Source: Tridacna crocea (Eukaryota; Mollusca; Bivalvia; Cardiida; Cardiidae). Taken from it: a stretch of DNA of 64,000 nucleotides. The position numbers and the translations under genes are program-made. Below are positions 1 to 64,000 of this stretch, piece after piece. Each line of letters starts with the position of its first letter. Positions within the stretch are counted from its first letter, which is position 1. Below the pieces are notes generated by a model. The model worked only from the letters and a program-made list of their open reading frames with translations, searched no databases and was not told the origin of the DNA. The stretch lies in contig OX031066.1 of assembly GCA_943736015.1 (NCBI GenBank), forward strand, positions 10,358,245 through 10,422,244, read 5' to 3'.

Positions 1-1740
1 ACTCTCCACTCACTCACTTTCTTGTTGTCTCTCTCTCTCTCTGTTTGTCTCTGTCTCCCTTTGTTATGCTTCTTACCGTCTGTCACTGGGTGTCTTTCCG
101 TATCTCTGTCTCTCTGTCTTTCTTTCTTTGTCCCTCTGTCTGTGTGTATGTCTGTCTGTCTGAATGTCTATCTGTTGTCTGCCTTCTGTTTGTCTGTCTG
201 TTTGCTCCTCTTTCTCCCCATGTCTCTTTGTCTCCCCCTCTCTTTTTCTCTTTCTCTCTCTCTCTTTCTCTACTGATATGTGTCTTTTCTTGAGTGTCTT
301 TCTCACCAACTTGACCCAAATCAAACATTCCCTCTACAACAATCCCTCCAACAAGTCCTCTCCTATCGTTCTTCATCTGCTTTGCCTCTGCCTCACTCTC
401 TCACACACTCATTCACAACTTACTCTCCACCTACTCACTTACTCACTTATCAGTCTGTCTGTCTGTCTCATCCCTTGTTATGTCAGTCCCTGTTTGGCTG
501 TCTGTCTGTCTGTCTATATCACTGTCTTTCTTTGTCTCTCTGTCTGTGTATGTGCCTGTCTGTTGTCTGTTTCTATCTCTTCCCTTGTTATGCCTGTCCT
601 CGTCTGTCTGTCTGTGTGTATGTCTCTCTATCTGTCTTGTTTTTCTGTCTTTGTGTCTGTGTGTCTGTCTGTACCTCAATCTCTCTGTGTTGGTATATAC
701 ATTTTATAAGTTACTCACCAACTTGACTCTGGTAACACATTCTCATATTAACCATCCATAAGTCCTTTCCTATCTTTTTCCCCCATTCACTCTCTCTCTG
801 TCCATCTCACTTAGTTATTTCTCTGTTTGATTATACCATTATTCACTCAGTATACATTCATTTTACTGTCTGCCCATGAGTCACTCTCACTCCCCCTTTC
901 ACTCACTCACTCACTCACTCACTCACTCACTCACTGTATGTGTGTGTGTTTCTCCCCTGTTTTTGCCTGTCCCCATCTGTCTGTCTACCTGTCAGACTGC
1001 TCCTCTCTCTCCCTCTATCTCCCTCTGTTGGTCTGTCCATCTCACTTCTCTCTGTCTGTCTCACTTTGTTATTCCTGATACTATTCCTATTCCTGATATT
1101 CACTGATACAATAATTCACTAACTCACATATACTTTCAAGTTACTGTAAGTCCATGACTCACTCACTCACTCACTCTATTACTCTATCACTCTCCTTGTT
1201 TTTGTCTGTCTCTGCCTACCCTTTTGCCTGCTTGCCTGCCTGCCTGCCTGTCTGTGTGTCTGTATCTATGTCTGTATCTATGTCTGTCTGTGTGTGTGTG
1301 TCTGTCTCCTCTCTCTCTCTCTGTATCTTTGATTTTCAGTATATGTCTTTTCCTGTGTCACCTACCAACTTAAGCCCAGTTGCTCATCTGTCTCTTAGTC
1401 TGTCATTTTCATCCACCACTAACTCACTCACTCAATTAGTCTCACTCTCTCTGCCTGTCTGTCTCTGTTTCTTTCTCTTACCCTGTTTTTGCCTGGCCCT
1501 GTCTGTCTGTTTGTCTCTCTGTCTCTCCAGTACCCCTATCCACCCATTATTACTTAATATTTCATTAACCTTAAGTACTTTTTACCCACCCATCCACTTT
1601 ATCACTCACTGACTCACCTACCCACTAACTAAATTACTCAACCTAACTAAATTACTCGTTCATTCACTTACTCAGATCACTCTATCTCTCACATAATCAC
1701 TCATCCCCTCTCTCTCAATTAACCATAATCCTGCTAAATA
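1..1740. repeat. Pyrimidine-rich low-complexity tract (CTGT/CACT)
   Basis: The top strand is almost purine-free and built from irregular CTGT, CTCT and CACT tetramers. Several long open frames exist on both strands, but they encode only Leu/Ser/Cys/Val (or Arg/Gln/Thr on the other strand), which is what the tetramers dictate in every frame. No gene is supported. A strand this asymmetric could form triplex or other non-B DNA. Confidence 0.9.
899..935. repeat. (CACT)n microsatellite
   Basis: About nine near-perfect tandem CACT units lie inside the low-complexity tract. Shorter runs of the same unit recur near 1155-1180. Confidence 0.9.
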
Positions 1741-1824
1741 ACTAAAATGGATTTTTCAATTCGATAGTAAAAACCAAAATGTTGCTACTTCAAATTTGTG
1801 CTTTGGGGAATAATGTTTCCTTAT

Positions 1825-1889
1825 CGGACAGTGTAGATCCAAGATCAGACTGCACATTCTTTGCAGTCTGATCTTGATCTACACTGTCT
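1825..1889. repeat. Palindromic element, family D
   Basis: Two arms of about 27 bases (gtagatccaagatcagactg and its reverse complement) are separated by a short loop, and outer bases also pair (gacagtgt with acactgtc). The same palindrome recurs at 42505-42575 and 46312-46405, with half copies near 21640, 28855 and 29905. This marks a dispersed family. Confidence 0.75.
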
Positions 1890-2534
1890 ACAAAAAGTCA
1901 GTAAGTCATGCTTAGCAGCCTAAGGGTCAATTACACACTCTTCTCCCCTCTCTTCCTGAATTTCTACTACTCAATCTCTTCATCTCTCTGTCTCTATTTT
2001 TCTTTCTGTCCTTCTTTCTTTTTGTCTCTGTTTCTCTTTCTATCTCTCTGTATTTCACTCTCCATCTCTTACTCATTTTCCTATTCATCCACTAACCCAT
2101 TTACACGCTTTCTTACTTATTCATCTATGACCCACCGTCTAACTCCTTTATTTGCTCATGCATGTACCAATTCATTCAACAAACTGTTTTACTCATAAAC
2201 TTATACTTATACTTATTCATTCACATATCACTCACTTACTTTTTAAACAATTACTTAATAACTTATTCCTCCAACTGTCATACTCTCGCCCTCATTTACC
2301 AATTTAACCACCCATCTTCCCACTCACTGACTCTACCCACTCACATGCTTACTCATTTCACAATCCCCTTACATAACCATTCACTTAATTCTTAACCTAT
2401 ATTTACCAACACACTCATTCAATGATAACTTCATTTACTCACCAACTCAATCTTAATTGCCCATGCACACACTCAACTACCCATGCATCCACTCACCAAC
2501 CCATTCAATTACTCTTTCAATCATTCACCATTCA

Positions 2535-2676
2535 TTAACTCATTACCAAATGACAATATTTTTGTCTGGTCCAAATCGAAAGCATTTGCAGACGACAACA
2601 TAAAAGTCACTGGAAATTTGAAATTTGATTTGTGAAGAGTAGAAAACATTGTGGGAAAAGGAGAAAATGCTGTTAA
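2535..2676 (+). mobile_element. Family-1 MITE, left half only
   Basis: The copy runs from the TTAACTC terminus to the first half of the central palindrome (gggaaaaggagaaaatgctg) and stops at a TTAA. The right half is missing. It lies alone in the low-complexity tract. Confidence 0.7.
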
Positions 2677-3086
2677 ATCTCTTTCACTCACTTAACAATT
2701 TAATCAAGTATTGGCATACCCATCCATCCTCTATCTAATTCGACTGACCACTGATTTATTTATTTATCTATTCCTTTTTCACTTCAACCTGTCACGCACT
2801 CAACAACATACTCATTTACTTCCTTTTTTTCTATTCCTCTTTGATTCTTTGTCTATTTGTCTGACTCTTTTTCTGTATCTCTGCATCTCTTTTCTCTCTC
2901 TCTCATCCTTGTATCCATTTACTCCTTCACAGAAACATTTATCTCCAAAATACTAACCCACCTACTAATTTACTCAACAACTCACTCATCTCATCTGCCA
3001 CTTGATCACATTTACTTACATACTTATTCTCCCTGATCATTTCCTTATCTTAACCAGTGCCAAACTCTTTTACATCCTTTACATTT

Positions 3087-3400
3087 ACCCATTTGTTTGC
3101 TCTCCCAACTACCCTTTTACCCAATCACCTCCCCATTAAATAAGATGTCTAATTTACCTACTCCCTCCCTCACATATATTTTATTCGCGCATTCATATAC
3201 TCCCTCCCTAAATTACCCATTAATCCAAACACCCTTTACTTTTACCCATTTGTTTGCTCTCCCAACCACCCTTTTACCCACTCACCTCCCCATTAAATAA
3301 CATTTCTTATTTACCTACTCAGTCCCTCATGTATCTTTTATTCGCACATGTATATACTCCCTCCCTAAATTACCCATCAATCCAAACACCAACCTTCCCA
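3087..3400 (+). repeat. 157-bp tandem duplication
   Basis: A block beginning acccatttgtttgctctccc occurs at 3087 and again at 3244. The two units are collinear through ctccctccctaaattaccca, with scattered substitutions. This points to local expansion of the low-complexity DNA. Confidence 0.8.
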
Positions 3401-4048
3401 TTTGTTTTCATTCCATCAGTCACTATCTGAACTTACCCACTTAGTCCCTCATCTCACTCACTTACCAACTCACCTGTTCACCCAATTTCTAATTTATTCT
3501 CCCACAAACTTACCTATCCAATATCAGCCCAGTTCCTTACACACTAACTCACTTAACTACCCATCATCCTTACTCACTCACTCATTTAGCCACTCATTCA
3601 CCTACACCACCCACTCACTTACCCTCATTTTTACTCACTCACTTATATACCCACACATTCACCTACACAGCCATCAGTCTACTCATTCTTTCACGTACCC
3701 ACCTAACCATCACTCACTAACTCACTAACTCACCAACCCAACCACACAGTTCACTTAACCCTTCTTCCACCCATCCACTCACCCTCCCACTCACTTACTC
3801 ACTCACACTCTTTCACTCTCTTTTCTTTCACTCACTCACTCACTTCCTAACTTCATCTTGCACTCACTAAAGAGACAGTGTGCAGGATTCCATTTTCTTT
3901 GGACAGCTGCCAGCTACAAATTGATTGATACTGCACTGACGGAGATGCTGAAGTATGGAAAATTCCTTGAGAGAGATCCCATGAAGCTGAAATGCTGACT
4001 GTGACATCTGTGAGGAGAGTTTCATCATGGTCTCAGGCTGCATAAATA

Positions 4049-7000
4049 CGCTCTACCTCCTTACGCAAACACCATCAAGCATGAGTCACAGAATCTGATG
4101 TCGGCCTGTCAGATATGCAGAATTGCTAGGTCAACTTCCTCACACCAACACCATGGATGTGAGCCGCAGATTCTGATGTCAGCCTGTCTGATATTCAGAA
4201 TTGCCCGCTCAACCTTGATACACCAATACCATTGAGCATGAGTCGCAGATTCTAATGTCAGCCGGTCAGATATTCAGAATTGCCAGCTCAACCTCCTTAC
4301 GCAAAAACCATCGAGCATGAGTCGCAGATTCTAATGTCAGCCTGTCAGATATTCAGAATTGCCCGCTCAACCTCCTTAAGCAAACACCATCGAGCATGAA
4401 TCACAGATTTTGAAGTCAGCCTGTCTGATATTCAGAATTGCCCGCTCAACCTCCATACACCAACACCATCGAGCATGAGTCGCAGATTCTGATGTCAGCC
4501 TGTCTGATATTCAGAATTGCCCGCTCAACCTTGAAACACCAACACCATTGAGCATGAGTCACAGATTCTGATGTCAGCCTGTCAGATATTCAGAATTGCC
4601 AGCTCAAACTCCTTACGCAAAAACCAACGAGCATGAGTCACAGATTCTAATGTCAGCCTGTCAGATATTCAGAATTGCCCACTCAACCTCCTTAAGCAAA
4701 CACCATAGAGCATGAGTCACAGATTCTATTGTCAGCCTGTCTGATATTCAGAATTGCCAGCTCAACCTCCTAACACCAACACCATCGTGCATGAGTCGCA
4801 TATTCTAATGTCAGCCTGTCTGATATTCAGAATTGCCAGCTCAACCTCCATACACCAACACCATTGAGCATGAGTTGCAGATTCTGATGTCAGCCTGTCA
4901 GATATTCAGAATTGCCAGCTCAACCTCCTTAAGCAAACACCATCGAGCATAAGTCACAGATTTTGAAGTCAGCCTGTCTGATATCCAGAATTGCCCGCTC
5001 AACCTCCTTACACAAACACCATCGAGCATGACTCACAGATTTTGATGTCAGCTTATCCAATATCCAGAATTGGCCACTGAACCTCCTCACACCAACACAA
5101 TCAAGCATGAGTTGCGGATTCTAATGTCAGCCTGTCAGATATTCAGAATTGCCAGCCCAACCCTCGTACACCAATACCATGGGGCATGAGATGCAGATTC
5201 TAATGTCAGCCTGTCAGATATTCAGAATTGCCAGTTCAACCCCCTTGACCTCATCACCATCGAGCATGAGTCGGAGATTCTAATGTCAGCCTGTCAGATA
5301 TGCAAAATTGCCCGCTCAACCTCCTCATACCAATACCATCAAAAATGAGATGCAGATTCTAATGTCAGCCTGTAATAGAGTCAGAATTGCCTGCTCAACC
5401 TCCTTACGCAAACACCATCTAGCATGAGATGCAGATTCTGATGTCAGCCTGTCAGATATCCAGAATTGCCCGCTCAACCTCCTTACCCAAACACCATCGA
5501 GCATGAGACGTAGATTCTGATGTCAGGCTGTCAGATATCCAGAATTGTCCGCTCAACCTCCTTACCCAAACACCATCGAGCATGAGACGCTGATTCTGAT
5601 GTCAGCCTGTCAGATATCCAGAATTGCCCGCTCAACCTCCTTATGCAAACACCATGGAGCATGAGATGCAGATCCTTATGTCAGCCTGTCAGATATACAG
5701 AATTGCTCAACCTCCTAACCCAAACACCATCAAGCATGATTCGCGGATTCTAATGCAAGCCACTCAGATATTCAGAATTGCCAGCTCAACACCATCACCT
5801 CATCACCATCGAGCAAGAGTTGCAGATCCTGATGCCAGCCTGTCAGATATTCAGAATTGCCTGCCTCCCTGTCATACACCAAGACCAGAGCATGAGTTGC
5901 AGATTCTGATGTCAGCCTGTCAGATATTCAGAATTACCAGCTCAACCTCCATACACCAACAGCATCGAACAAAGTCGCAGATTCTGATGTCAGCCTGTCA
6001 GATATTCAGAATTGCCAGCTGAATCTCCTTACGCAAACACCTTCGAGCATGAGTCTCAGATTCTAATGTCGGCCTGTCAGATATTCAGAATTGCTGGCTC
6101 AACCTCCTTAAGCACACACCATTGGGCAAGAGTCGCAGATTCTGATGTCACCCTGTCAGGTTTTCAGAATTGCCCACTTAACCTTCTCACACCAACACCA
6201 TCGAGCAAGAGTCGCAGATTCTAATGTCAGCCTGTCAGATATTCAGAATTGCCCGCTCAACTTCCATACACCAACACCATCAAGCATGAATCGCAGATTC
6301 TAATGTCAGCTTATCAGATATTCAAAATTGCCTGCTCAATCTTCATACACCAACACCATCAAGCATGAGTCCTGTATTCTGATGTCAGCCTGTCAGATAT
6401 TCAGAATTGCCAGCTCAACCTCTTTACGAAAACACCATCGAGCATGAATCGCAGATTCTGATGTCAGCCTGTCAGATATCCAGAATTGCCCGCTCAACCT
6501 CCTTACCCAAACACCATCGAGCATGAGTCGCAGATTCTGATGTCAGCCTGTCAGATATGTAAAATTGCAAAGTCAATCTCCTTACGCAAACACCATCGAG
6601 TATGAGTCCAAGATTCTGATGTCAGCCTGTCAGGTTTTCAGAATTGCCCGCTCAACCTCCTTACCCAAACACCATCGAGCACGAGTCGCAGATTCTGATG
6701 TCAGCCTGTCAGATATCCAGAATTGCCCGCTCAACCTCCTTACGCAAACACCATCGAGCATGAGATGCAGATTCTGATGTCAGCCTGTCACATGTCCAGA
6801 ATTGCCCGCTCAACCTCCTTAAATTGCCTGCTCAATCCTCATACACCAACACCATCAAGCATGAGTCCTGTATTCTGATGTCAGCCTGTCAGATATGCAG
6901 AATTGCCAGCTCAACCTCTTTACGAAAACACCATCAAGCATGAGACGCAGATTCTGATGTCAGCCTGTCAGATACCCAGAATTGCCCGCTCAACCTCCTA

Positions 7001-7255
7001 CCCAAACACCATCAAGCATGAGTCGCAGATTCTGATGTCAGCCTGTCAGATATCCAGGATTGCCCGCTCAACCTCCTTACGCAAACACCATCGAGCATGA
7101 GATGCAGATTCTAATGTCAGCCTGTCAGATATCCAGAATTGCCCGCTCAACCTCCTTATGCAAACTCCAGCGAGCATGAGTCGGAGATTCTAATGTCAGC
7201 CTGTCAGATATCCAGAATTGCCCGCTCAACCTCCATACACCATCACCATCGAGGG
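4049..7255 (+). repeat. 79-bp satellite array, about 40 copies
   Basis: The unit contains gagcatgagtcgcagattct, then atgtcagcctgtcagatatt, then cagaattgcccgctcaacct. Landmarks at 4313, 4392 and 4471 give a period of 79. Copies diverge by point changes (gatattc or gatatcc; ccagctc or cccgctc) and small indels. Because 79 is not a multiple of 3, the frame shifts each unit; a few copies with compensating indels give open frames up to 132 codons with repeats such as ILMSACQIFRIA. I regard these as chance. The array borders low-complexity DNA on the left and ordinary AT-rich DNA on the right. Confidence 0.92.
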
Positions 7256-8640: not shown

Positions 8641-8749
8641 GATCTCTACAGAATATCTTCCAAGTGTGAAAGCCAACCTCTGTTAGTTTTCAGATGACAA
8701 ATATGCAATATGTATCTATTCCAGTATTCAGAGGGCCAAGTGTGGGGCT

Positions 8750-9570
8750 GCTGGTGTAAAGAGTCTTGAATAACAGTCCTACAGTATATACCACTGTCTG
8801 CGGGTGTAAAGGGTCTTGAACAACAGTCTTACAGTACTTACCACTGTCTGCGGGTGTAAAAGGTCTTTAACAACAGTCTACAGTACATGCCTCTGTTCGC
8901 CAGTGTAAAGGGTCTTAAACAACAGTCTACAGTACATGCCTCTGTCCACCAGTGTAAAGGATCTTGAACAACAGTCTTACAGTACTTACCACTGTCTGCG
9001 GGTGTAAAGTGTCTTTAACAACAGTCTACAGTACATGCCTCTGTTCGCCAGTGTAAAGGGTCTTAAACAACAGTCTACAGTACATGCCTCTGTCCACCAG
9101 TGTAAAGGATCTTGAACAACAGTCTTACAGTACTTACCACTGTCTGCGGGTGTAAAGTGTCTTTAACAACAGTCTACAGTACATGCCTCTGTTCGCCAGT
9201 GTAAAGGGTCTTTAACAACAGTCCTACAGTACATGCCACTGTCTGCGGGTGTAAAGTGTCTTTAACAACAGTCCTACAGTACATGGCACTGTCTGCGGGT
9301 GTAAAGGGTCTTTAACAACAGTCCTACAGTACATGCGTCTGTCCACCGGTGTAAAGGGTCTTGAACATCAATCCTACAGTACATGCCTCTGTCTGCCAGT
9401 GTAAGGTGTCTTGAACAACAATCCTACAGTACATACCACTGTCTGTGGGTGTAAAGGGTCTTGAACAACAGTCCTACAGTATATGCCACTGTCTACCGAT
9501 GTAAAGGGTTTTGAACAACGATTCTACAGTACATGCCATTTTCTCCAGATGTAAAGAATCTTGCAGATCA
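8750..9570 (+). repeat. 50-bp tandem array with 148-bp higher-order unit
   Basis: About 16 units of the form gtgtaaagggtcttgaacaa followed by cagtcctacagtacatgcca. Landmarks at 8761, 8811 and 8861 give a period of 50. Three successive variants (49+49+50) repeat almost exactly at 8863, 9011 and 9159, a 148-bp higher-order unit. No open frame is conserved between copies. Confidence 0.88.
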
Positions 9571-9720
9571 GTTCCTCAGTACAGGAAACAGTCGTCCTGT
9601 CACCATATATAGGGCAAAAAGGTACACAGAAAAGATGTGCCTTTTGATGGCTTTATTTGCATTTCATTATGAATGATGAAAGAAGAACTAGATAGATAAA
9701 CTAGATAGAGAGTCCTCAGT

Positions 9721-14705: not shown

Positions 14706-17040
14706 TAGCTCACCTGAGCACGAAGTGCTCATGGTGAGCTATTGTGATCGTGCTGTGTCCGGCGTCCGTCGTCCGTCGTGCGTCGTCCGTCGTCCGTCGT
14801 CAACTTTTTACCTTGTGTACACTCTACAGGCCACAGTTTTGGTCGGATACTCATGAAAGTTGGTCAGGATGTTTGTCTCGATGAAATCTCGGACGAGTTC
14901 GAAAATGGGTCATGTGGGGTCAAAAACTAGGTCACTAGGTCAAATCTTAGAAAAACCTTGTGTACGCTCTAGAGGCCACATTTTGAGTCGGGTACTCATG
15001 AAAGTTGGTCAGGATGTTTGTCTCGATGATATCTCGGACGAGTTCGAAAATGGGTCATGTGGGGTCAAAAACTAGGTCACTAGGTCAAATCTTAGAAAAA
15101 CCTTGTGTACGCTCTAGAGGCCGCATTTTGAGTCCGATACTCGTGAAAGTTGGTCAGGATGTTTGTCTCGATGATATCTCGGACGAGTTCGAAAGTGGGT
15201 CACGTGGGGTCAAAAACTAGGTCATCAGGTCAAATCTTAGAAAAACCTTGTGTACGCTCTAGAGGCCGCATTTTCAGTCGGATACACGTGAAAGTTGGTC
15301 AGGATGTTTGTCTCGATGATATCTCGGACGAGTTCGAAAGTGGGTCACGTGGGGTCAAAAACTAGGTCACCAGGTCAAATCTTAGAAAAACCTTGTGTAC
15401 GCTCTAGAGGCCACATTTTCAGTTGGATACTCATGAAAGTTGGTCAGGATGATTGTCTGGATGATATCTCGGACGAGTTTGAAAGTGGGTCACGTGGGGT
15501 CAAAAACTAGGTCACCAGGTCAAATCTTAGAAAAACCTTTTGTACGCTCTAGAGGCCACATTTTCAGTCGGATACTCATGAAAAATGGTCAGGATGTTTG
15601 TCTGGATGATATCTCGGACGAGTTTGAAAGTGGGTCACGTGGGGTCAAAAACTAGGTCAACAGGTCAAATCTTAGAAAAACCTTTTGTACGCTCTAGAGG
15701 CCACATTTTCAGTCGGATACTCATGAAAGTTGGTCAGGATGTTTGTCTCGATGATATCTCGGACGAGTTCGAAAATGGGTCACGTGGGGTCAAAAACTAG
15801 GTCACCAGGTCAAATCTTAGAAAAACCTTTTGTACGCTCTAGAGGCCACATTTTTAGTTGGATACTCATGAAAGTTGGTCAGGATGTTTGTCTCGATGAT
15901 ATCTCGGACGAGTTTGAAAATGGGTCACGTGGGGTCAAAAACTAGGTCACCAGGTCAAATCTTAGAAAAACCTTTTGTACGCTCTAGAGGCCACATTTTC
16001 AGTTGGATACTCATGAAAGTTGGTCAGAATGTTTGTCTGGATGATATCTCGGACGAGTTTGAAAATGGGTCACGTTGGGTCAAAAACTAGGTCACTAGGT
16101 CAATTCTTAGAAAAACCTTTTGTACGCTCTAGAGGCCATATTTTCAGTTGGATACTCATGAAAGTTGGTCAGGATGTTTGCCTGGATGATATCTCGGACA
16201 AGAACGAAAATGGGTCATGTGGGGTCAAAAACTAGGTCACTAGGTCAAATGTTAGAAAAACCTGTTGTAGGCTCTAGAGGCCACATTTTCAGTCCGAAAC
16301 TCTTGTAAGTTGGTCAGAATGTTTGTCTTGATGATATCTCAGACAGGTTTGAAAATGGGTCATTGGGGGTTAAAAACTAGGTCACCAGGTCAAATCTTAG
16401 AAAAACCTTGTATATGCTCTGGATGCCACATTTTCAATCCAACACTCTTGAAAATTAGTCAGAATGTTTGCCTTTATAATATCTTGGATGAATTTGAATA
16501 TGGGTCATGTTGGGTCAAAAACTGGGTCAATAGGTCAAATGTTATAAACACCTTTTGTATGCTCTGGAGGACACATTTTCAGTCTGATACTCCTAAAACT
16601 TGTTCATAATATTTGTCCTGGTGATACCTTGAATGAGTTTGAAAATGGGTCATGTGGAGTCAAAAACTAGGTCAATGGGTCAAATATTAGAAAAACCTTG
16701 TGTACACTCCAGAGGCTACATTTTCTGCCTGATACTCTTCAGACTTGGTCAGAATGTTTGTTTTGGTGATGTCTCAAAAGAGTTTGATAATGGGTGTTTG
16801 TCGGGTCCAAAACTAGGTCACTTGATGAAATCTTAGAAAAACCTTTTGTACACTGTAGAGGCCACATTTTCAGTCCAATACTCATGAAACTTGGCCAGAA
16901 TGTTTGTCTTATTGATATCTCAAAAGTGTTTGATGATGGGTAATGTCTGATAAAAAACTAGGTCACTGGGAAACTAGATGGTACATGTTTGGTCAATAAA
17001 CTCAGGTGAGCGATTTCAGGGCCATCATGGCCCTCTTGTT
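14706..17040 (+). mobile_element. Pearl/HINE-like element A, complete
   Basis: Order of parts: a 5' end tagctcacctgagcac with a small hairpin (gagcacgaagtgctc); a GTCC/GTCGTCC-rich microsatellite (about 14758-14806); about 15 core repeats of 145 bp; ctcaggtgagcgatttcagg, which inversely matches the 5' end; and a 3' hairpin gggccatcatggccc followed by tcttgtt. This layout, and insertion between T residues without an obvious target duplication, matches pearl elements of bivalves and the Helentron-associated HINE class. No protein is encoded. Confidence 0.75.
14815..16985 (+). repeat. 145-bp core tandem repeats, about 15 copies
   Basis: The unit includes gttggtcaggatgtttgtct, cgatgatatctcggacgagt and ggtcaaaaactaggtcac. 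The first ten units are very similar, while the last four or five (from about 16250) are progressively diverged. Overlapping 71-codon frames appear every 145 bases because each unit happens to be open; I do not regard them as genes. Confidence 0.9.
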
Positions 17041-39436: not shown

Positions 39437-40500
39437 AATTTTTTATACTCCCGGTTTACGCAACCCCTCCTACAGTTTCCATCGGAATTATTTAAAACAT
39501 GCCACAATGAATCTCCATGATGTCTAGTTGTGCACCTGGGTCTTAGAATTTGGATCGCTGTTTGCGTTCTAAAATTATCTGCTCTTGATTTCTGAAATAA
39601 CCAACTTTTCAGTTTGAATTGTTGTCCAGGCAATAACTTCCATACTACAAAAGGTATCAACTTGAAACTTAATACATGTACACTGATAGAACACATTATG
39701 GAGAAGTGCAGTGCACATAAAACATAACTCTGCCACCATTATTTTTTGAGTTACTGCTCTTTGTTAATTTTCAATTGAATATTTATCCAGGCCATAACTT
39801 CTAAACTATGAAAGCTATTAACTTGGAACCTCATACACTGATAGAACCCATTGTGGAGAAGTGCATCACACATGAACCATAACTCTGCCACGTTATTTTT
39901 TGAGTTATTGCCCTTTGTTAATTTTCAGTTTGAATTTTTGTCCAGGCCATAACTTCCAAACTATAAAAGCTATTATCTTGGAACTTCATACACTGATAGA
40001 ACTTATGATGGAGAAGTGCATTGCACATGAATCATAACTCTGCCACCTTTACTTTTGATTCATTGCCATTTGTTGATTTTCAGTTTGAATTTTTGGAAAG
40101 ACCATAACTTCCAAACTTCAAAATCCATCATCATGTAACTTCAAAGACTAATAGAACACATTATGAAGAAGTGCATTGCACAAGAACCATAACTCTGCCA
40201 TCCTTCTTTTTGAGGTATTACCCTTTTCACTTTGAATTTTCGTCTGGGCCATAATTTCTAAAATATAAAAGATATTATCTTGGACCTTCAAAGACTGATA
40301 GAACACCTTGTGGATAAGAGCAAATCACAAAATTTGTAACTTTGCTACCCTTATTTTTTTTATTGCCCTCTAATATTTTTCACATATCATGGAGAATAAC
40401 TACTCTTCATTCATGGTCCATTAGTCAATGCAACTCATTTCACTGACAAGCCCCATCGGGCGTATATGCGCCGCTCTGCGAAGCTCTTGTTTATGTGTCT
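39437..40500 (+). mobile_element. Pearl/HINE-like element B
   Basis: The 5' end is tatactcccggtttacgcaa ccc; then about five core repeats of about 155 bp (landmark gccataacttc at about 39630, 39791, 39946, 40101 and 40248); then a 3' region cgtatatgcgccgctctgcg aagctcttgttta, which folds into a short GC hairpin before cttgttt. The copy at 58048 has the same 5' end with a long GTCC microsatellite, which is missing here. A 147-codon minus-strand frame (39253-39696) crosses its left border and is an artefact. Confidence 0.68.
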
Positions 40501-55456: not shown

Positions 55457-56509
55457 AAGAATATATTTATATTTTCTTGTGAAATGTATGTTCGCAGACG
55501 CCAACAACTTATTTAAGCAAAACTTTGTGCCAACTGCCACCCGACTTCGTAGATTGTCGTAAATATGAATAGACTTCCGGAAATTATGTGCCAATTACCG
55601 CCAATCGCATTTCTTGGTATTCGCAACAGATTGCATTATGATTATGACAGTATTCTGGGAGAAATGTTTTTCGAATATGATGTCAACAATACGAGTTTTT
55701 TTTTTTTCAAGCAACGGGTGGAATCCAAAAACATTTCTTCATTTAGTCAATATGGTAGATTCACCCAAGTTTAAAATTGTTTCGTCGAAACGCAATAGTT
55801 CTTCTATATGTGGTTACGAACATATCCGATATATAGAATGTTTTCAACACTTTTCAATGAGAGTTTATCAACTGTTGTAAATGAGAAACAGACCGCTATT
55901 CAAGTATTTTATACGTGTTTAGCAGGTTAAGTTGGCTGGCCATCATAGATGAGTGGCGAAATATGGAGGGCACATGGCATAAAATTGAGGCAGCTTTAGG
56001 TGCCATTAATGCCAATAGTCACGATATTCATCGTGTAACCAAACATCAAGGATATTGCTCCTCTTGACATCGCCATTGTTTATATGCTTAAATCACGATT
56101 GATTGCTCGGACACTAGAATGACGCACAGCAGTTCTGTTTAATGCGCCAAATTGGAGATTTGCCTATATTGCCTTTTCTAGATCAATTATTAGTAGAAAT
56201 GATTTATCCCGATAACTCCATTCACTGCAGCACAACAACTAAAGTTCGAGATGCACGCCCTTACAGGAAGTTCAACCGCTATCACAGACGATACTGTGTA
56301 AATGTTGATCATGCCATTGCGCAAATAAAAGTTTACTGGAAGGCCACCAGCAATGTTTGAAGACATTCACGGAAATATATGACTGAAACCGTTATCTGTG
56401 GTGCGTTGGTATAAAGTAAGAAAATCATAGACCTGTCTTATCCTCTTTTATCCTCTTAAACTGAAATATTGCTCTGAAAAGTTAACGCTATTTGGAACAG
56501 TTTAACATA
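55457..56509. other. No recognisable gene
   Basis: AT-rich DNA with overlapping small frames (55565-55880, 56142-56360). I recognise no family. Confidence 0.4.
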
Positions 56510-58013
56510 TACTCAAAGAAAAAAGAAACGCAACTTTTTCAAAATTATATATATTATGTCCATGCAATGAAACGTCGTTCTTTCTATAATTGGTCATCAC
56601 TATCGATATTTACTCACTTTGTTTTAGTAAATGTAACCCATGCGTTATGCCGTATTCAGCAAATTTAATTTTTCACGTGCACGTTGCACTGAACAACTTG
56701 TATGTGAGAACCTATTCAAATTTCATCGTAGGATTTACCATACAGGCTCAAGTACAAATAATCCAGACTTTTTTAGCGTTTTTATGCGGTTATTGCTATG
56801 CCACGCTTAAGCAAAGAACAGCGCGAACACGCCGTCAGGATGCTGATGAACGGGACTTCGCAACGCCAAGTTGCAGCGCAACTACGGGTTCATAAAAGTA
56901 CCATATCTCGAATGGTTAAACGTTTGAGGGAAACTGGTACTACTGCCGATGGCCAAAGATCAGGCCGTCCTCGTGCCACTACACGTCAGGAAGACGCTTA
57001 TATACGCCTGACACATCTACGTCAGCGGTTTCGTACAGCCACTGAAACCGCAGCGCACATGAGAGGAGTTCGTGTGAGTGCTAGGACTGTAAGAAACCGT
57101 CTGCGTGAATTCGGCTTAAATGCCAGGAGGCCGTATGTTGGGTTGCCGCTGACCCCGGATAGACGACGTCGCCGTATGGAATGGCTTACTGCCCACCGTC
57201 CGGGCGTATTTTCTCTTCGGCAATGGAGAGAAGTCTTATTCTCTGACGAGTCCCGTTTCTTGCTGTATCGTTCAGACAGAAGAACTCGTGTCTACTGACG
57301 TCGAGGTGAACGTTTCTCAGACGCTTGTGTGGTGGAGTGTGATCGCTTTGGAGGTGGTGGGTTGATGGTGTGGGCAGGCATATCACATGGGCAAAAAACT
57401 CCACTCATATTCATAGAAGGATCTTTGACAGCTGTTTGTTACAGGGACACTGTGCTGCAACCGATCGTCGTCCCATTCGTGCAACGTCACAACGTCACTT
57501 TCCAGCACGACAATGCACGGCCACATGTTGCTAGGATATGCCAAGCCTACCTGGCCGACAACAACGTGAATGTTATGCCTTGGCCGGCGTTCAGTCCCGA
57601 TCTTTCGCCGATTGAACATCTTTGGGATATTTTGGACAGACGTGTACGTAAACGGAATCCACCGCCGACGTCACACGATGAGCTGAGACAAGCACTCACT
57701 GAGGAGTGGGAAAACATCACTATCAGACAGGTGAACGGTCTGATCAATTCCATGCACAGACGGATTAGAGCTGCAATGGCTGCCAACGGGGGCCATACTC
57801 GGTATTAGACATTTGAACGGCGCATTCGCCACCCTTATGTCATAAAAGCTGCAATATTTATCAATGTGCGTTTGGTTTCGTGTCAAGAAAAGTTACAGTG
57901 AAAGAAAGCCTCTTGTGTTGTTATTTCAAGAATGAAATCAGTTTATATTGTGAATAAATTTACATTTAAATTCTGTGCTTAATCTAGAGTTGCGTTTCTT
58001 TTTTCCCTTAGTA
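56510..58013 (+). mobile_element. Tc1-like transposon, nearly intact
   Basis: Terminal inverted repeats (tactcaaagaaaaaagaaac gcaact at the left; the same with two or three differences, inverted, at the right) are bounded by TA on both sides. The single internal gene occupies 56798-57808. The 288-bp 5' and 205-bp 3' noncoding parts show no further repeats. Good TIR identity and a single stop in the gene point to a recent insertion. Confidence 0.9.
56798..57808 (+). pseudogene. Tc1-like DD34E transposase with one premature stop
   Basis: Cut-and-paste transposase. It would bind the element's TIRs and move it into TA sites. The frame has 336 codons, a normal Tc1 length. Residues 1-60 form the first helix-turn-helix (SKEQREHAVRMLMNG, QRQVAAQLRVHKSTISR), followed by a GRPR hook at about 56-59. 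A second helix-turn-helix lies at about 75-115 (VSARTVRNRLREFG). The catalytic domain has SDESRF (D150), QHDNARPH (D238) and SPDLSPIEHLWD (E273), with 34 residues between the last two. Start: the only ATG before the helix-turn-helix. At codon 167, TGA replaces what is CGA (Arg) in the RVYRRRGERF motif, a C-to-T change. There is no frameshift. The protein could be made only by read-through, so I call it a pseudogene, recently inactivated. Confidence 0.88.
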
Positions 58014-58047
58014 TACATTATAGGAGCATATAAACGAGCCTTGAGTT

Positions 58048-58458
58048 TTTATACGCCCGGAGGGTCGTATTATGTTATACCCCCGGTCGTCCGTCCGTCC
58101 GTCCGTCCGTCCGTCCGTCTGTCCGTCTGTCCGTCCGTCCCTCCGTCCGTCCGTTAGCAATTTCTTGTGTGCGCAACTCCTCCTACAGTTTTCATCGGAA
58201 TTATTTGAAACTTGCCACAAAGAATCTCCATCATGTCTAGTTGTGCACCTGGGTCTTAGAATTTTGATCGCTGTTTGCATTCCAAAATTATCTGCCCTTG
58301 ATTTCTGAAATAACCAACTTTTCACTTTGAATTTTTGTTCAGGCCATTACTTTCATACCATAAAAGGTATCAAATTGAAACTACATACACTGATAGAACA
58401 CATTATGGAGAAGTGCAGTGCACATGAAACATAACTCTGCCATTTTTAGTTTTTGAAC
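58048..58458 (+). mobile_element. Pearl/HINE-like element B, cut by the retrotransposon
   Basis: 5' end tatacgcccggagggtcgta ttatg, then the microsatellite, then the first core repeat (cttgccacaaagaatctcca; gccattactttcataccata aaagg). Homology with the copy at 39437 stops at about 58458 after aactctgccatttttag, where retrotransposon sequence begins. The 3' part should lie beyond the window. Confidence 0.75.
58086..58154 (+). repeat. (GTCC)n microsatellite
   Basis: About 17 tetranucleotide units, mostly GTCC with occasional GTCT and CTCC. It sits at the position where pearl elements carry their microsatellite. Confidence 0.95.
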
Positions 58459-59071
58459 CCCCAGCTGGGCGGGGGGGATAGAAATAGCTCAGCTGTCGCA
58501 CTATAGCAGGGGTAAGACCCCCCCCCCCCCCCCACTGTGCCTGCCTGTTTGCCGTGGGCTGCAACTGGTGTCGTTCGATGACGGGATCCTGGTGGTTGAG
58601 TGGATTCAGAGTATGGCCCTTTGATAGCTCTGTTTTTGCAACACACCACTTTGGCCTTGAACTGAACTAAACGAGGGGTCGGGAAGGCCCGTCCTGATCA
58701 ATCGGCTGGTCACGCCGAGCCCTAGGGTGTTTCTGTGTCTCTGTTTTCTTTTAGAAGTACATACACATAAAAATAAAATTCATGTCTCTTCTCTACCATC
58801 AGTAGCTGTATATCAAAACCCTAGAAGGCGGTGGCTCATGGGCTAATCGGTTGAAAGAATGGTGTTTGGTTGACACTTGTAAATGCCCAAAGACAGTCAA
58901 TGCTTGGTGTGACATTCTGCGGGCCTACATTTGTCCAGTCTAGCCCTTTCACTTCGAGTATATCACCGATGTATCCTTGTCATGATCTGAGTTGGGTTTC
59001 CCCAGATCATGTCCCCTTGTTGGGCTCCGGGGCGGGTGGGGAACATCGGTGATGAACCCTATCAAATAAAC

Positions 59072-60586
59072 ATGGCAACACAAAAGAAAGCCAAGCGTGT
59101 TCTTTCTGACTCTGATTCAGAGTCAGACATATCATTCAATACAAAAACAACATTTGCTCGTTTTATTGTAGTAGATGCGGTTGATCCAACCAAGCCCATC
59201 TCAAAACTTTCTCCATTTGTTATAGAGAAGACAGTTTCTTCCATTTTAGGCACACCAAAATCTGTGAAAAAACTAAAAAATGACACTTTGCTTGTTGAAT
59301 GTCATTCTCAACAGCAAGCCAAAAATCTCCTAGGTCATAAAAGATTTCACAATTTGGATGTAAAAGTTTACCCTCACAAAACTCTTAACACCAGTAAAGG
59401 AGTCATCAGATGTAAGGAACTATCCTACTGTGACTCGGTGGAAGAGATTAAAAGTAACCTGAAATCTCAGGCTGTGTCTGAGGTCAAACGGATCTCTATT
59501 TTCAGGAATGGTATGCGTAGAGATACAAATACCTATGTCCTTACCTTTTGTACACCAGTTCTTCCAGCTTCCATCAAAATAGGATTTCAATCTGTGAAGG
59601 TTGATGTGTATGTGCCTAACCCTCTGCGCTGTTATAAATGCCAGAGGTACGGCCATCACGAAAGTAATTGCAAAAGCACACCTGTCTGTCCAAAATGTGC
59701 TTTTGAGGGCCCTGACCATGAGCCTAATACTTGCAATAACCCTGTTCTCTGTTTTAATTGCAAGTCCAATCATCCAGTCTTTTCGAAAGAGTGCTCAGTC
59801 TGGAAGGATGAAAAAGAAATCCTATCTATAAAATATAAAGAAAATATTCCTTTTGTGGAAGCACGAAAGATCATTGAAAAACGCAGAAATGACCAAACAT
59901 TGTTGAATTGTTCAACATCCTATGCAAAAGTGTCTTCTGCAACATCCGGAAAGGAACATTGCTCTACTTGTGAACTCTTGGCAAAGAAACTTCTTGAAAA
60001 GTTTCCAGAAATGGCCAATGAGTTAAAAAGCTTAGTTCCTGATATTCAACCTTCCGTACCTCCAAAGCCTTCAAAACAGACACAGCCTACTCCCAAACCC
60101 ACCACTTCATCCACTACACTAAAAACACCATCTACCCCTTCTCAAAGTATTTCTTCGAAAAAACCTTCAAAGACATCTACCTCTGTGCAAAACATCTCAC
60201 AAAAAGCTTCAAAACCATCTCCCCCTTCACAACAGACACCAAAGAAACCACAACCTCCATCTTCACAGTCTACAACCAAATCCAACGTCTCATCTAAAGA
60301 CAATCCGAATCATACACCCCTACCTCCTAAAAGGTCTTCTTCAAAATCTAAACCACAATCTAAAGATAACCAAGGATCTTGTGAGATCACAGTCAAAGTA
60401 AATGATCCTGTCCCTACGTCCAACAGATTTTCGGAGCTAGAGGACATGGACGCAGATACTGAAAATCTGGAAGGTGAGGCTTCAGATTCAGAAGCCTCTA
60501 TCTGGTCCACTTCCAAAGATCTTTGGAACAAGGATTTTGACGCGTGGCAATCATCCAAAGCCGAGACATCTGTAATTAAATCTTAA
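59072..60586 (+). CDS. Retrotransposon ORF1p (gag-like, zinc knuckles)
   Basis: Nucleic-acid-binding protein that would coat the element's RNA and assist target-primed reverse transcription. About 504 residues. I chose the ATG at 59072 (MATQKKAKRV) over the upstream in-frame ATG at 59009, because the upstream residues look like untranslated leader. Order: a Ser/Asp-rich start, an RRM-like alpha/beta region (about 25-180, FIVVDAVDPTKP, NLDVKVYPHKTLN), three zinc knuckles at about 187-250 (CYKCQRYGHHESNC; CPKCAFEGPDHEPNTC; CFNCKSNHPVFSKEC), then a long Pro/Ser/Thr/Lys-rich linker (about 330-460) and an acidic C-terminus (SELEDMDADTENLEGEASDS). There are no stops or frameshifts. ORF2 follows 72 bases downstream in another frame, so ORF2 is probably translated by reinitiation or a similar mechanism. 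Confidence 0.88.
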   Translation: MATQKKAKRVLSDSDSESDISFNTKTTFARFIVVDAVDPTKPISKLSPFVIEKTVSSILGTPKSVKKLKNDTLLVECHSQQQAKNLLGHKRFHNLDVKVYPHKTLNTSKGVIRCKELSYCDSVEEIKSNLKSQAVSEVKRISIFRNGMRRDTNTYVLTFCTPVLPASIKIGFQSVKVDVYVPNPLRCYKCQRYGHHESNCKSTPVCPKCAFEGPDHEPNTCNNPVLCFNCKSNHPVFSKECSVWKDEKEILSIKYKENIPFVEARKIIEKRRNDQTLLNCSTSYAKVSSATSGKEHCSTCELLAKKLLEKFPEMANELKSLVPDIQPSVPPKPSKQTQPTPKPTTSSTTLKTPSTPSQSISSKKPSKTSTSVQNISQKASKPSPPSQQTPKKPQPPSSQSTTKSNVSSKDNPNHTPLPPKRSSSKSKPQSKDNQGSCEITVKVNDPVPTSNRFSELEDMDADTENLEGEASDSEASIWSTSKDLWNKDFDAWQSSKAETSVIKS

Positions 60587-60658
60587 CCAGTCTATTTTAA
60601 AATGCATTGGTTTACGACCTCGTTTTTTACTATAGTCTTTATACTTTCCTCATGCACT

Positions 60659-63600
60659 ATGGATACCATAATCCAGTGGAATTGTCGAGGTCTGAAGTCA
60701 AACTTTGACGAACTTTCACTTTTAATCAATGAGCACAAACCAGTTGCTGTTTGTCTGCAAGAAACCTTCCTTAAACGGGAGGATGATATCACTATCAAAT
60801 ATCATTCTGTTTACAACAAGATTTTTACCGAACGTGAAAAAGCCAGAGGAGGTGTTTCTATTATTGTAAACAACAACATTCCTCACAAAGTTATCTCTTT
60901 AAATACAAACCTGCAAGCTGTTGCTGTCAGGTTATCTATACACAGTGCTGTTACACTGTGTTCTTTATATCTCCCGCCAAGCATACCTATCAATGAGACC
61001 AATCTGAATGATCTCATTTCACAATTGCCATCCCCCTATATTCTTGCTGGGGACTTTAATGGTCACAATGTTATGTGGGGTTGCAATGACACCAACCAGA
61101 GAGGTCTCCAGTTGGAGAACTTCATTTCGAACAACTCTCTGTCTTTCATGAATGATAACAAATCCAAAACCTACTTACATCCAGCAACTGGATCTTACTC
61201 TTCCATTGATTTAACATTATGCAGCCCAGTCTTACTTCCCAATTTTACTTGGAAAGTGACTGAGGATTTGTGTGGAAGTGATCACTTCCCCATTATCTTT
61301 TCATCTACACAACCGTCCAGCAGTGTACGACCGCAGAAATGGAAGCTTTCCAAAGCCAATTGGAATAAATTTGAAACCCTATGTGAACAGACCATTACAC
61401 ATGATAAATTTAGAAATTGCGATGATCCTGCTAAACTTTTCACTTCCCTATTAATTGATGCAGCTAAACAGTCCGTCCCTCAGACCTCGACAAACCCAAA
61501 ACGACCTGACAAGCCTTGGTACAATGATGATTGTAAACAGGCTGTCAGAGACAGAAAACAGGCCCTTAGAAAATTTAACCTCAGGCCTACCAAAGAAAAT
61601 CTCGACTTATTTCGTATTTCCAGGGAAAAAGCCCGTCGTACCATTAGAGAAAGTAAGCGTAAGGCTTGGAGACAGTATGTCTCTAAATTAAATAGTAGAA
61701 CTACTACTAAAAAAACCTGGGACATGATCAGAAAGATCAATGGCAAAGGCCAGACCCCTGTTAGTCACCTTGAGGTTAACAATACTTCGTTGGAATCTCC
61801 CCAGGATATAGCTGATGCTCTTGCTAACACCTTTTGCAAAAAGTCTTCCTCTGCAAACTATTCAGAAAAGTTTCAGAGGAATAAAGCTAGAGAAGAAAAG
61901 AAAAAGCTTAATTTCAAGTCTTCGAATTCAGAGCATTTTAATAAACTCTTCACTTTTAAAGAATTAAAATCTGCTCTGAATAAAGCTCATGATTCTTCTC
62001 CTGGCCCAGATAAAGTTCATTACCAGTTTTTAAAACGCTTCCCTTTTACTTCCCTCTCAGTTTTACTTGATATTTTTAATGATATCTGGCAGTCAGGTGA
62101 TTTTCCTGCATCTTGGCGGGAGGCACTTGTCATTCCTATCCCAAAACCTGGCAAAGATGCTAGTGACCCGGCTAACTATCGGCCAATAGCTCTTACTAGT
62201 TGTCTCTGCAAGACCCTAGAACGTATGGTCAACGACAGGCTTGTCTGGTTTTTAGAGAAGAACAACCTCATCGTTGATGTACAGAGTGGATTTCGTCGCC
62301 AGCGTGGCACCATAGATCATCTTGTCCGCTTTGAAACCTTTGTCAGAGAAGCCTTTATTAATAGACAGCATGTAGTATCTGTCTTTTTCGACCTTGAAAG
62401 CGCTTACGATACAACTTGGAAATACGGAATTATGAAAGACTTGCATGACTTTGGTCTTCGAGGCCGTCTTCCTCTTTTTATTTCAGCCTTCTTGGATGAA
62501 CGTCTTTGCCGTGTCCGAGTTGGTAATACTGTCTCGGGAGCCCGTGAACAGGAGATGGGTGTACCCCAAGGATGTATTCTCTCTGTTACACTTTTCAGTG
62601 TGAAAATAAACAGTATAGTCAAAGCTATCTGTCCTGGTGTAGACTGTTCCCTCTATGTTGATGACTTCGTCATATGCTTCAGATCTCGAAATATGAATAT
62701 TATTGAGAGACAACTTCAGCAATGTCTCAACAAATTGCAAACATGGTCTGATGAAAATGGCTTCAAATTTTCAAAGTCCAAAACTAAGTGCATGCACCTC
62801 TGTAATCTACGAGGTGTTCATCCAGATCCTGAACTTTATCTGGACAAAACTAAAATTGAAGTCGTTTCCGAGTTTAAATTTCTTGGAGTCATCTTTGACA
62901 GAAAGCTTTCTTTCCTTCCTCACATCACTGCACTTAAAAAGAAGTGCAAGAAGGCTCTTAATCTTCTTAAGGTTGTGGCTCATTCTGAATTGGGAGCAGA
63001 CCGTAAAGTCCTCTTGCGGCTTTATCGGTCTTTAGTTCGCTCCAAGTTGGACTATGGATCTGTTGTATACGGATCGGCCCGTAAATCCTATCTGAAAATT
63101 CTCGATTCCATACATCACGAAGGTCTACGTCTTGTACTTGGAGCTTTCAGAACTTCTCCCGTCAATAGTCTGTATGTTGAGGCTAATGAACCTTCTCTTT
63201 CTTACAGGAGAGAAAAACTCTCACTTCAATATATTTTAAAACTTAAGTCGAATCGTTTTAATCCAACTCATAACGTTGTCTTTAAACCTGAATATAAACG
63301 TCTCTTTGAAAGGAAACCAAATGTTATTCCTCCATTTGGTATCCGCATGGAGCCCATTGTAGATAACCTTGGCATAGACACCGAGTCTATTGCCGACTAT
63401 AAAATCTCTGAAATCCCTCCATGGACACTAAACAGTGCAGAATTCAGATTTGACCTTGCATCTGACAAAAAATCTGTCACGGATAGAACTGTATTTCATG
63501 CTAGATACAACGAGATAAAGGAGCATTATTTTTCCTTCAAACCCATCTATACAGATGGATCTAAAGAAGGCAATTCTGTAGCAGCTGCCGCTGTTTATGG

Positions 63601-64000
63601 ACAAAGGAACTTAAAATGCCGCCTTCCAAACAACTCCTCTATCTTCTCTGCTGAAATTAAAGCAGTAGATCTGGCCCTTAATCTAGTTGAAAGTTCTAAT
63701 TCCAACCGTTTTATTATCTTTTCAGACTCTTTGTCAACATTACAGGCCCTTTCAAATCAACGACTTGAGAATCCTTTAATCTGCAGTTTACTTAAAAGGA
63801 TCTCACAAATTTCTTCTAAGAATAGATTGGTGTTCTGCTGGCTTCCAAGTCATGTAGGCATCAAAGGCAATGAAAATGCCGATAGGTCTGCCAAATCTGC
63901 ACTTAACCTTCCCATTTCAGATTTTAAAGTTCCACACACTGATTTTAAATCCACCGTTTTATCACATATCCAATCTTCTTGGCAATCCCAGTGGGATGCT
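60659..64000 (+). CDS. Retrotransposon ORF2p: endonuclease, reverse transcriptase, RNase H (3' truncated by window)
   Basis: Enzyme that would nick target DNA and copy the element RNA into the genome. I read 1,114 codons in one frame from ATG 60659 to the last base, with no stop. Endonuclease: WNCRGL (7-12), QET (E35), AGDFNGHN (D132, N134), SIDLTLCSP, GSDHFP (D208, H209). Reverse transcriptase: AHDSSPGPDKVHY, YRPIALTSCLCKTLER, motif A SVFFDLESAYDTTW (D578), GVPQGCILSVTLF, motif C YVDD (D668, D669), FLGVIFDR. RNase H: IYTDGS (D966), AEIKAVDLAL (E999), IFSDS (D1023), GNENADRSAK (D1075). All expected catalytic acids are present. Minor oddities are Ser where I expect Lys in FDLEKAYD, and Cys where I expect Ser in PQGS. 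The start lies 72 bases after ORF1. The C-terminus is not in the window. Confidence 0.92.
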   Translation, partial: MDTIIQWNCRGLKSNFDELSLLINEHKPVAVCLQETFLKREDDITIKYHSVYNKIFTEREKARGGVSIIVNNNIPHKVISLNTNLQAVAVRLSIHSAVTLCSLYLPPSIPINETNLNDLISQLPSPYILAGDFNGHNVMWGCNDTNQRGLQLENFISNNSLSFMNDNKSKTYLHPATGSYSSIDLTLCSPVLLPNFTWKVTEDLCGSDHFPIIFSSTQPSSSVRPQKWKLSKANWNKFETLCEQTITHDKFRNCDDPAKLFTSLLIDAAKQSVPQTSTNPKRPDKPWYNDDCKQAVRDRKQALRKFNLRPTKENLDLFRISREKARRTIRESKRKAWRQYVSKLNSRTTTKKTWDMIRKINGKGQTPVSHLEVNNTSLESPQDIADALANTFCKKSSSANYSEKFQRNKAREEKKKLNFKSSNSEHFNKLFTFKELKSALNKAHDSSPGPDKVHYQFLKRFPFTSLSVLLDIFNDIWQSGDFPASWREALVIPIPKPGKDASDPANYRPIALTSCLCKTLERMVNDRLVWFLEKNNLIVDVQSGFRRQRGTIDHLVRFETFVREAFINRQHVVSVFFDLESAYDTTWKYGIMKDLHDFGLRGRLPLFISAFLDERLCRVRVGNTVSGAREQEMGVPQGCILSVTLFSVKINSIVKAICPGVDCSLYVDDFVICFRSRNMNIIERQLQQCLNKLQTWSDENGFKFSKSKTKCMHLCNLRGVHPDPELYLDKTKIEVVSEFKFLGVIFDRKLSFLPHITALKKKCKKALNLLKVVAHSELGADRKVLLRLYRSLVRSKLDYGSVVYGSARKSYLKILDSIHHEGLRLVLGAFRTSPVNSLYVEANEPSLSYRREKLSLQYILKLKSNRFNPTHNVVFKPEYKRLFERKPNVIPPFGIRMEPIVDNLGIDTESIADYKISEIPPWTLNSAEFRFDLASDKKSVTDRTVFHARYNEIKEHYFSFKPIYTDGSKEGNSVAAAAVYGQRNLKCRLPNNSSIFSAEIKAVDLALNLVESSNSNRFIIFSDSLSTLQALSNQRLENPLICSLLKRISQISSKNRLVFCWLPSHVGIKGNENADRSAKSALNLPISDFKVPHTDFKSTVLSHIQSSWQSQWDA

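Follow-up and report, generated by a model that had tools for sequence, protein, structure and literature searches.

The 3' edge of a 64,000-nucleotide stretch of the Tridacna crocea genome (the window; C11:10358245-10422244 of a 1.05-Gb genome, contig OX031066.1) cuts through a long interspersed nuclear element (LINE), or non-long-terminal-repeat retrotransposon, recognizable by an endonuclease and a reverse transcriptase (RT) encoded in a single second open reading frame (ORF2), by a target-site duplication, and by a 3' tail. It is very probably an autonomous I-superfamily LINE, complete and recently inserted, with Nimb as its probable clade, and a member of a young family that exchanges segments, presumably mainly by template switching. 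The copies that we examined have exchanged front ends, tails, and inner segments. This mosaic nature was not visible to the author of an earlier note on this DNA, which was made from the letters of the window.

That note had drawn attention to a stop-free frame of 1,114 codons from the ATG at 60659 to the window edge at 64000, and the frame is as described there. It is in fact stop-free already from 60587, directly 3' of the ORF1 stop (60584-60586), and has an earlier in-frame ATG at 60602. First-order Markov controls (30 sequences of 64 kb with the element's dinucleotide makeup) had no stop-free frame longer than 188 codons (mean, 158), so the observed frame is far beyond chance. A contig extension (L009, C11:10416245-10426244, in which position x corresponds to window position 58000 + x) closes ORF2 with a TGA at L009 6334-6336 (equivalent to 64334-64336), 336 nt past the window edge. 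This TGA sits at the shared end of ORF2; a premature stop or frameshift just past the window, which the earlier note had named as one of the outcomes that would undo its reading, is ruled out. A C/H-rich C-terminal stretch precedes the stop in all 20 ORF2s of at least 1,230 amino acids (aa). The product is 1,244 aa long counted from 60602 and 1,225 aa long counted from 60659. The extension also supplied the CATT tail and a perfect 13-bp target-site duplication; together with the stop, these are the features whose confirmation the earlier note had asked for. For annotation, the consequence is that ORF2 of a complete mobile element would be missed by an ORF list requiring a stop, because the window edge cuts the element.

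The LINE runs on the forward strand from 58457 to the equivalent of 64994 (6,538 bp) in the order 5' untranslated region (UTR), ORF1, ORF2, 3' UTR, and CATT tail. Direct comparison of the flanks places the 5' copy of the target-site duplication, TTTTAGTTTTTGA, at 58444..58456 and the 3' copy at L009 6995-7007 (equivalent to 64995-65007), with all 13 bases matching. The insertion was made recently into a degenerate tandem repeat, which runs on both sides of it and also occurs at 39459-40322. Upstream, the repeat matches reach 58453-58456 and no further; downstream, the same kind of repeat restarts after the element end ...CATTCATTCA. Since the repeat matches end, and the duplication abuts the element, at 58456/58457, the 5' end is complete, as had been supposed. 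A search of 57000-64000, with the element's last kilobase lying outside it, found no long repeat pair that could represent long terminal repeats, and by eye the ends of the copies differ.

ORF1 (59072..60586; 504 aa, beginning MATQKKAK) is open, in keeping with the earlier claim that it is intact. The mechanical ORF list starts it at 59009, but the ATG at 59072 is most likely the true start because 11 aligned ORF1s, drawn from four 5' modules (described below), all retain MA[TS]QKK. Three Cys/His clusters (59630..59794), invariant in the same 11 proteins, are presumably zinc-knuckle-like, although the Pfam zf-CCHC match falls below its cut-off (14.8 versus 20.8 bits). The ORF1 of type II LINEs consists of an RNA-recognition motif (RRM) plus CCHC knuckles, and the ORF1 protein here is probably RNA binding. 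The spacer between the two frames (60587..60658) has no stop in the ORF2 frame in the copies compared, those of module D included, and AAAATG (60599-60604) follows soon after the regular ORF1 stop. Only 15 nt separate that stop from the ATG at 60602, and it is possible that ORF2 starts there by termination-reinitiation. By eye, the spacer encodes a hydrophobic leader. The same-frame layout of ORF1 and ORF2 in the D copies was set aside as independent evidence of coupling, because their spacer is recognizably homologous.

ORF2 (60602..64000 in the window, continuing to the equivalent of 64336) is in the same frame as ORF1 and has Pfam matches that all exceed their curated cut-offs. These are an apurinic-type endonuclease (60671..61297; PF03372 and PF14529), a reverse transcriptase (62138..62896; RVT_1, PF00078, 132 bits) with its catalytic D in FFDLE and DD in YVDDF, and an RNase H (63545..63904; PF00075, 46.8 bits versus a cut-off of 25.8). 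NCBIfam gave sub-cut-off matches only. The endonuclease aligns with the TRAS1 (1wdu) and L1 endonuclease structures and the RT with L1 ORF2p structures (human LINE-1 ORF2p, 8sxt), both domains being homologous at low sequence similarity. The RNase H aligns with RNase H1 and human immunodeficiency virus RNase H and has its four catalytic acids in place: the D of YTDGS, the E of SAEIKA, the D of FSDS, and the D of NENADR. All three enzymes named in the earlier note were thus confirmed. Each catalytic motif checked is present in 19 or 20 of the 20 ORF2s of at least 1,230 aa, and the three misses fall in three different copies, none of them the window copy.

Relatives were sought across the genome by RT match and by 5' UTR match. 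A first look gave 6,931 RT candidates, of which 150 were scored; 95 of these matches with the 759-base length of the window copy were taken together with it as 96 loci, 52 of which carry an open frame of 1,248 to 1,249 codons, in a sample biased to high scores. For the 5' UTR, 40 of 456 candidates were scored. We studied 29 copies, few and nonrandomly fetched: the window copy, 20 of the 95 RT matches, and 8 of the 39 non-self 5' UTR matches. Clear target-site duplications of 10 to 14 bp flank 22 of the 29, and 21 of these duplications are distinct; L035 and L036 have one in common, as if a segmental duplication had produced the pair. L011 and L026, both among the 22, start about 200 bases inside the element. 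For the other seven (L014, L017, L018, L019, L021, L029, and L031), inspection by eye gave no duplication or an ambiguous or spurious match. A CATT-type tail was seen by eye in 28 of the 29 copies. Both frames are open (ORF1 of at least 500 codons, ORF2 of at least 1,248) in 13 of the 29, three of which are D copies.

Several loci showed oddities of their own. In L030, an internal deletion has produced a single 1,398-codon frame across parts of ORF1 and ORF2, with a 13-bp target-site duplication around the copy. Both flanks of L031 match ORF2 of the same family; this copy seems either to have inserted into another family copy or to have pieces of one next to it. Three RT matches of the family (C2:58052930, 58072765, and 58092600) are spaced exactly 19,835 bp apart, which suggests a tandem segmental duplication that carried the LINE along. 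The RT match at C2:12759714-12760472 has an open frame of 1,685 codons, which exceeds the length of ORF2 in the fetched copies; loss of the stop that separates the two ORFs may be the cause.

Within ORF2, the window copy is 97 to 98% identical to the other 22 copies of a main set (pairs within the set, 96 to 100%) and 92 to 93% identical to the four D copies. ORF2 is 96 to 100% identical among 23 copies, and the other outcome that the earlier note had named, an old, diverged lineage, is not what the genome copies show. The 5' end of the element presents a different picture. ORF1N, the first two thirds of ORF1, divides the copies into module A (the window copy, L010, L015, and L031 to L037; 97 to 100% identical among themselves), module B (12 copies; 89 to 100% among themselves, 62 to 64% to A), module C (L016 only; 72 to 73% to A), and module D (L012, L014, L017, and L018; 47 to 61% to A). 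The 5' UTR is about 74% identical between A and most B copies. In the window, the exchangeable module, which is of type A, extends over 58457..60241, from the 5' UTR (58457..59071) through ORF1 to its Pro/Ser/Thr-rich linker; in modules A, B, and C, the C-terminal part of ORF1 (60242..60586) moves together with ORF2. The C-rich start of the 5' UTR is also present in the other full-length A copies, and module B carries a variant of it.

Synonymous sites make the discrepancy plain. Between modules, those of ORF1N are saturated (proportion of synonymous differences, pS, 0.69 to 0.85), whereas synonymous divergence (dS) in main-set ORF2s is about 0.02 to 0.07. Against the B copy L025, the window copy has a pS of 0.736 and a nonsynonymous divergence (dN) of 0.32 in ORF1N but a dS of 0.046 and a dN of 0.011 in ORF2; against the A copy L015, dS is 0.023 in ORF1N and 0.045 in ORF2. 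The divergence of ORF2 thus does not follow the head that it carries, being 0.046 for the B partner and 0.045 for the A partner. Identity between modules shifts within about a hundred bases. A 40-nt identity profile puts the A/B transition at the same place in all 12 B copies, and a base-by-base listing of 4 of the 12 has dense mismatch stopping at element position 1785 (window ~60241, within the linker), beyond which mismatches stay in excess to a lesser degree up to ~1890. For module C the junction is near element position 1745, and for module D it is near 2165, where ORF2 starts.

Quick trees (without L019, whose 5' part was unmatched and for which no 3' end was found, and L030, because of its deletion) disagree along the element. 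The ORF1N tree groups A and B with full support, yet ORF2 rejects A (approximately unbiased [AU] test, P = 0.008) and B (P = 5.8e-5) as clades, as does the 3' UTR (P = 4e-41 and 3.4e-5, respectively). The reverse also applies: L015 and four B copies, which the 3' UTR suggests as a group, are rejected as such by the 5' part (P = 0.001). Mapped onto the 3' UTR tree, the A label requires 7 changes, against a mean of 7.7 in 500 shuffles, 203 of them as low; for the B label the figures are 6 changes, a mean of 7.9, and 63 shuffles. Neither label is clearly clustered on that tree, and the 5' module is nearly unlinked to the type of 3' UTR. The 3' UTR of the window copy is closest to that of the C copy L016. 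A stretch of ~200 bp of the 3' UTR (element 6104-6303) is tandemly duplicated in L013, L015, and L020 to L022, which have A and B heads; it is a further 3' feature common across modules.

Mixing extends into ORF2 itself. Among 168 informative sites in 22 copies, neighboring sites are incompatible in a fraction of 0.214 of pairs, compared with 0.367 after shuffling (0 of 500 shuffles as low), and this excess compatibility of neighbors points to recombination rather than recurrent mutation. The nearest relative of the window copy changes from segment to segment along ORF2. One patch (61579..61723; element 3123-3267) has 12 positions unlike most main-set copies, 9 of them shared with L037 and 3 private, and several of the 9 also occur in L010 and the D copies.

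The copies also show recent activity of the family. L027 and L029, which lie at different loci with different flanks, have 5 differences in 5,708 sites of element 730-6538 (L029 is without a 5' end). ORF2 dN/dS is 0.18 to 0.33 over ten pairs of five main-set copies and 0.11 to 0.12 when the five are paired with the D copy L014, values which imply purifying selection on the lineages between copies. The window copy differs from at least 80% of the other copies at 67 positions, 27 of which are private to it (27/6,538 = 0.41%, from a 28-row alignment without L030). In a 29-row alignment, its ORF2 has 16 private changes in 3,747 sites, spread 5/6/5 over codon positions, and this flat spread is the pattern expected after insertion. 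At 0.41% divergence, ~0.95 stops would be expected by chance in its frames; its open frames are therefore only mild evidence when taken alone. At an assumed substitution rate of 1-4e-9 per site per year, the window copy would be some 1 to 4 million years old and the L027-L029 pair far younger. The earlier suggestion of a live or very recently active element thus holds for recent activity, in view of the copies, duplications, and open frames. This copy is, however, not at near-zero divergence: it is 98.1% identical to its nearest fetched relative, L015, over element 1-6303.

Target-primed reverse transcription is established for LINEs. In the mechanism that we propose, the LINE RNA would encode the ORF1 protein plus the ORF2 enzyme, which would nick the target and reverse-transcribe the RNA from its 3' end, and integration would leave the 10- to 14-bp target-site duplications and the short CATT tail. 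The RT would at times switch template between co-packaged LINE RNAs, making some new insertions mosaic; over time this could yield three diverged 5' heads on near-identical ORF2s, a fourth head on an ORF2 7 to 8% away, and shuffled ORF2 and 3' UTR variants. The sharing of the B junction by copies that have their own target-site duplications shows that a chimera arose and was then multiplied as a unit.

We infer from the sequences that the exchange took place mainly by template switching, but several points weigh against this reading of the element and its family. A similar pattern would result if inserted copies in the genomic DNA underwent gene conversion or ectopic recombination with one another, and this is a possibility to be taken seriously even though we doubt it. 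The family offers many similar copies as partners, and the ORF2 patch at element 3123-3267 and the small-scale mixing resemble conversion tracts. On the other hand, the 5' junction looks alike throughout the 12 B copies, of which 10 carry clear duplications of their own, and so was inherited and spread by retrotransposition; furthermore, conversion by a dead copy would often kill, yet 13 of the 29 copies keep both frames, albeit in a sample biased to intact ones. That bias is a second caution, as selection by RT score (20 copies) or 5' UTR match (8 copies) favors intact, close members. Linkage is also not wholly lost: both labels remain clustered when placed on the ORF2 tree (as low in 9 of 500 shuffles for A and in 13 for B), and a supported ORF2 clade unites five A copies (L031 to L034 and L037), so exchange has been frequent but incomplete. 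Present activity of the family is only suggested by the copies, and the window copy is not among the newest, given the distance of its nearest fetched relative. Finally, an RRM-like fold of ORF1 is no more than hinted at by a single-sequence model in which the first 72 residues follow the order beta-alpha-beta-beta-alpha-beta at low confidence (mean predicted local distance difference test score [pLDDT], 38.5).

An RNase H domain C-terminal to the RT marks the I superfamily, to which the element probably belongs. Its probable assignment to the Nimb clade comes from the domain layout and a published census, not from a tree with reference elements. According to that mollusc LINE census (PMC10294476), the I superfamily is represented in the molluscs examined by Nimb, Ingi, and one unknown octopus clade only, and bivalves hold many potentially active LINE families. 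Nimb-1_LVa of shrimp, as tabulated in its source (PMC5055719), is a 1286-aa protein with an endonuclease/exonuclease/phosphatase (EEP) domain at 97-240, RT at 520-777, and RNase H at 991-1112; the 1244-aa ORF2 product in the window, compared with it by table only, agrees with it in domain order and very nearly in domain positions (endonuclease, 24-232; RT, 513-765; RNase H, 982-1101). The Nimbus/BgI element of the snail Biomphalaria is cited as a Nimb member in another paper (PMC11203168). Ingi also belongs to the I superfamily and also occurs in molluscs (PMC10294476 and PMC11203168). That the element is an Ingi LINE is nonetheless somewhat unlikely, as its domain positions closely match those of the published Nimb protein, a likeness that is not strictly discriminating.

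Near-identical copies are difficult to assemble, and an assembler that mixed such repeats could create mosaics. We consider this improbable, because the same junction is found in 12 copies spread over several contigs, 10 of the copies with different clear duplications, and because modules at ~63% identity are unlikely to be confused; the fine-scale mixing within ORF2 stays exposed to this doubt. The ORF1 of some LINEs evolves fast. Very improbably, though, has such evolution, driven by a host arms race, made the 5' half look old and ORF2 young: rapid ORF1 evolution is discussed in a mouse L1 study (PMC3600994), but the saturated ORF1N synonymous sites between modules stand against the low ORF2 dS, ORF1N dN is well under dS, the untranslated 5' UTR has diverged too, and identity shifts abruptly. 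Positive selection as the cause of the ORF1 divergence was likewise rejected by the dS contrast between ORF1N and ORF2.

L1 elements are not known to carry an RNase H domain, and mouse L1 belongs to the L1 superfamily, whereas the window element is an I-superfamily LINE with RNase H. Mouse L1 is nevertheless the closest precedent that we found for mosaic evolution: in the published study (PMC3600994), L1Md families exchanged 5' UTR, ORF1, ORF2, and 3' UTR, and recombinant lineages were amplified. The same source lists three routes of exchange (DNA recombination, RNA/DNA heteroduplex with a genomic copy, and RNA strand switching) and reports that most of the exchanges involved families active at the same time, as strand switching would predict, although some segments came from extinct families. 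It gives a minimum of six events among family consensus sequences, a count made differently from ours; in the window family, it is individual copies that conflict along their whole length, with 5' module and 3' UTR type nearly unlinked. Jockey-superfamily LINEs (CR1 and L2; PMC4120745) similarly exchanged ORF1 while ORF2 kept one history, but that exchange was between clades over long times with a tree-like ORF2, whereas the window family is young, is confined in our data to one genome, and has a mixed ORF2. LINE-1 chimeras are the subject of a further paper (PMC13174262). Mosaic LINE evolution is thus already known; what is unusual here is frequent exchange within one I-superfamily family. 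We met no report of comparable exchange in an I-superfamily LINE in the part of the literature surveyed, at the level of titles and abstract openings, and we do not claim that there is none.

Database searches beyond the genome returned no relatives, as expected of collections that are viral and microbial: viral_contigs contained no relative of the window part of ORF2 or of an RT stretch and no exact match to a 23-base 5' motif, genome_contigs had no relative of the ORF2 part, and the phages collection gave no match. Neither Rfam (at gathering thresholds) nor ARAGORN found anything in the window, and an impression, gained by eye, that the 5' UTR resembles a tRNA was abandoned. Elsewhere in the window, a Tc1/mariner-type element occupies 56508-58015, with terminal inverted repeats (56508-56535 and 57988-58015) that are 89% identical and a transposase frame broken by one in-frame TGA (57296-57298). 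Tandem arrays lie at 4049-7253 (79-bp unit), 8748-9583 (50 bp), and 14810-16967 (145 bp), and the pyrimidine-rich simple repeats within 1-4000 come with a strongly asymmetric strand composition (GC skew, -0.44 and -0.67).

For a family of this kind, a single tree, or dating by ORF2 alone, can mislead. Open-framed, similar, and mosaic copies in one chromosome-scale genome allow the rate and route of LINE recombination to be studied per insertion and not between family averages. It is an evenly balanced proposition that the family is a recombining population, in which old 5' heads ride on a common ORF2 engine and head and 3' UTR type are near linkage equilibrium, such that selection could act on heads and engine separately. 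If this is true, different LINE RNAs would routinely be co-packaged, and their reverse transcriptase would switch templates at high frequency.

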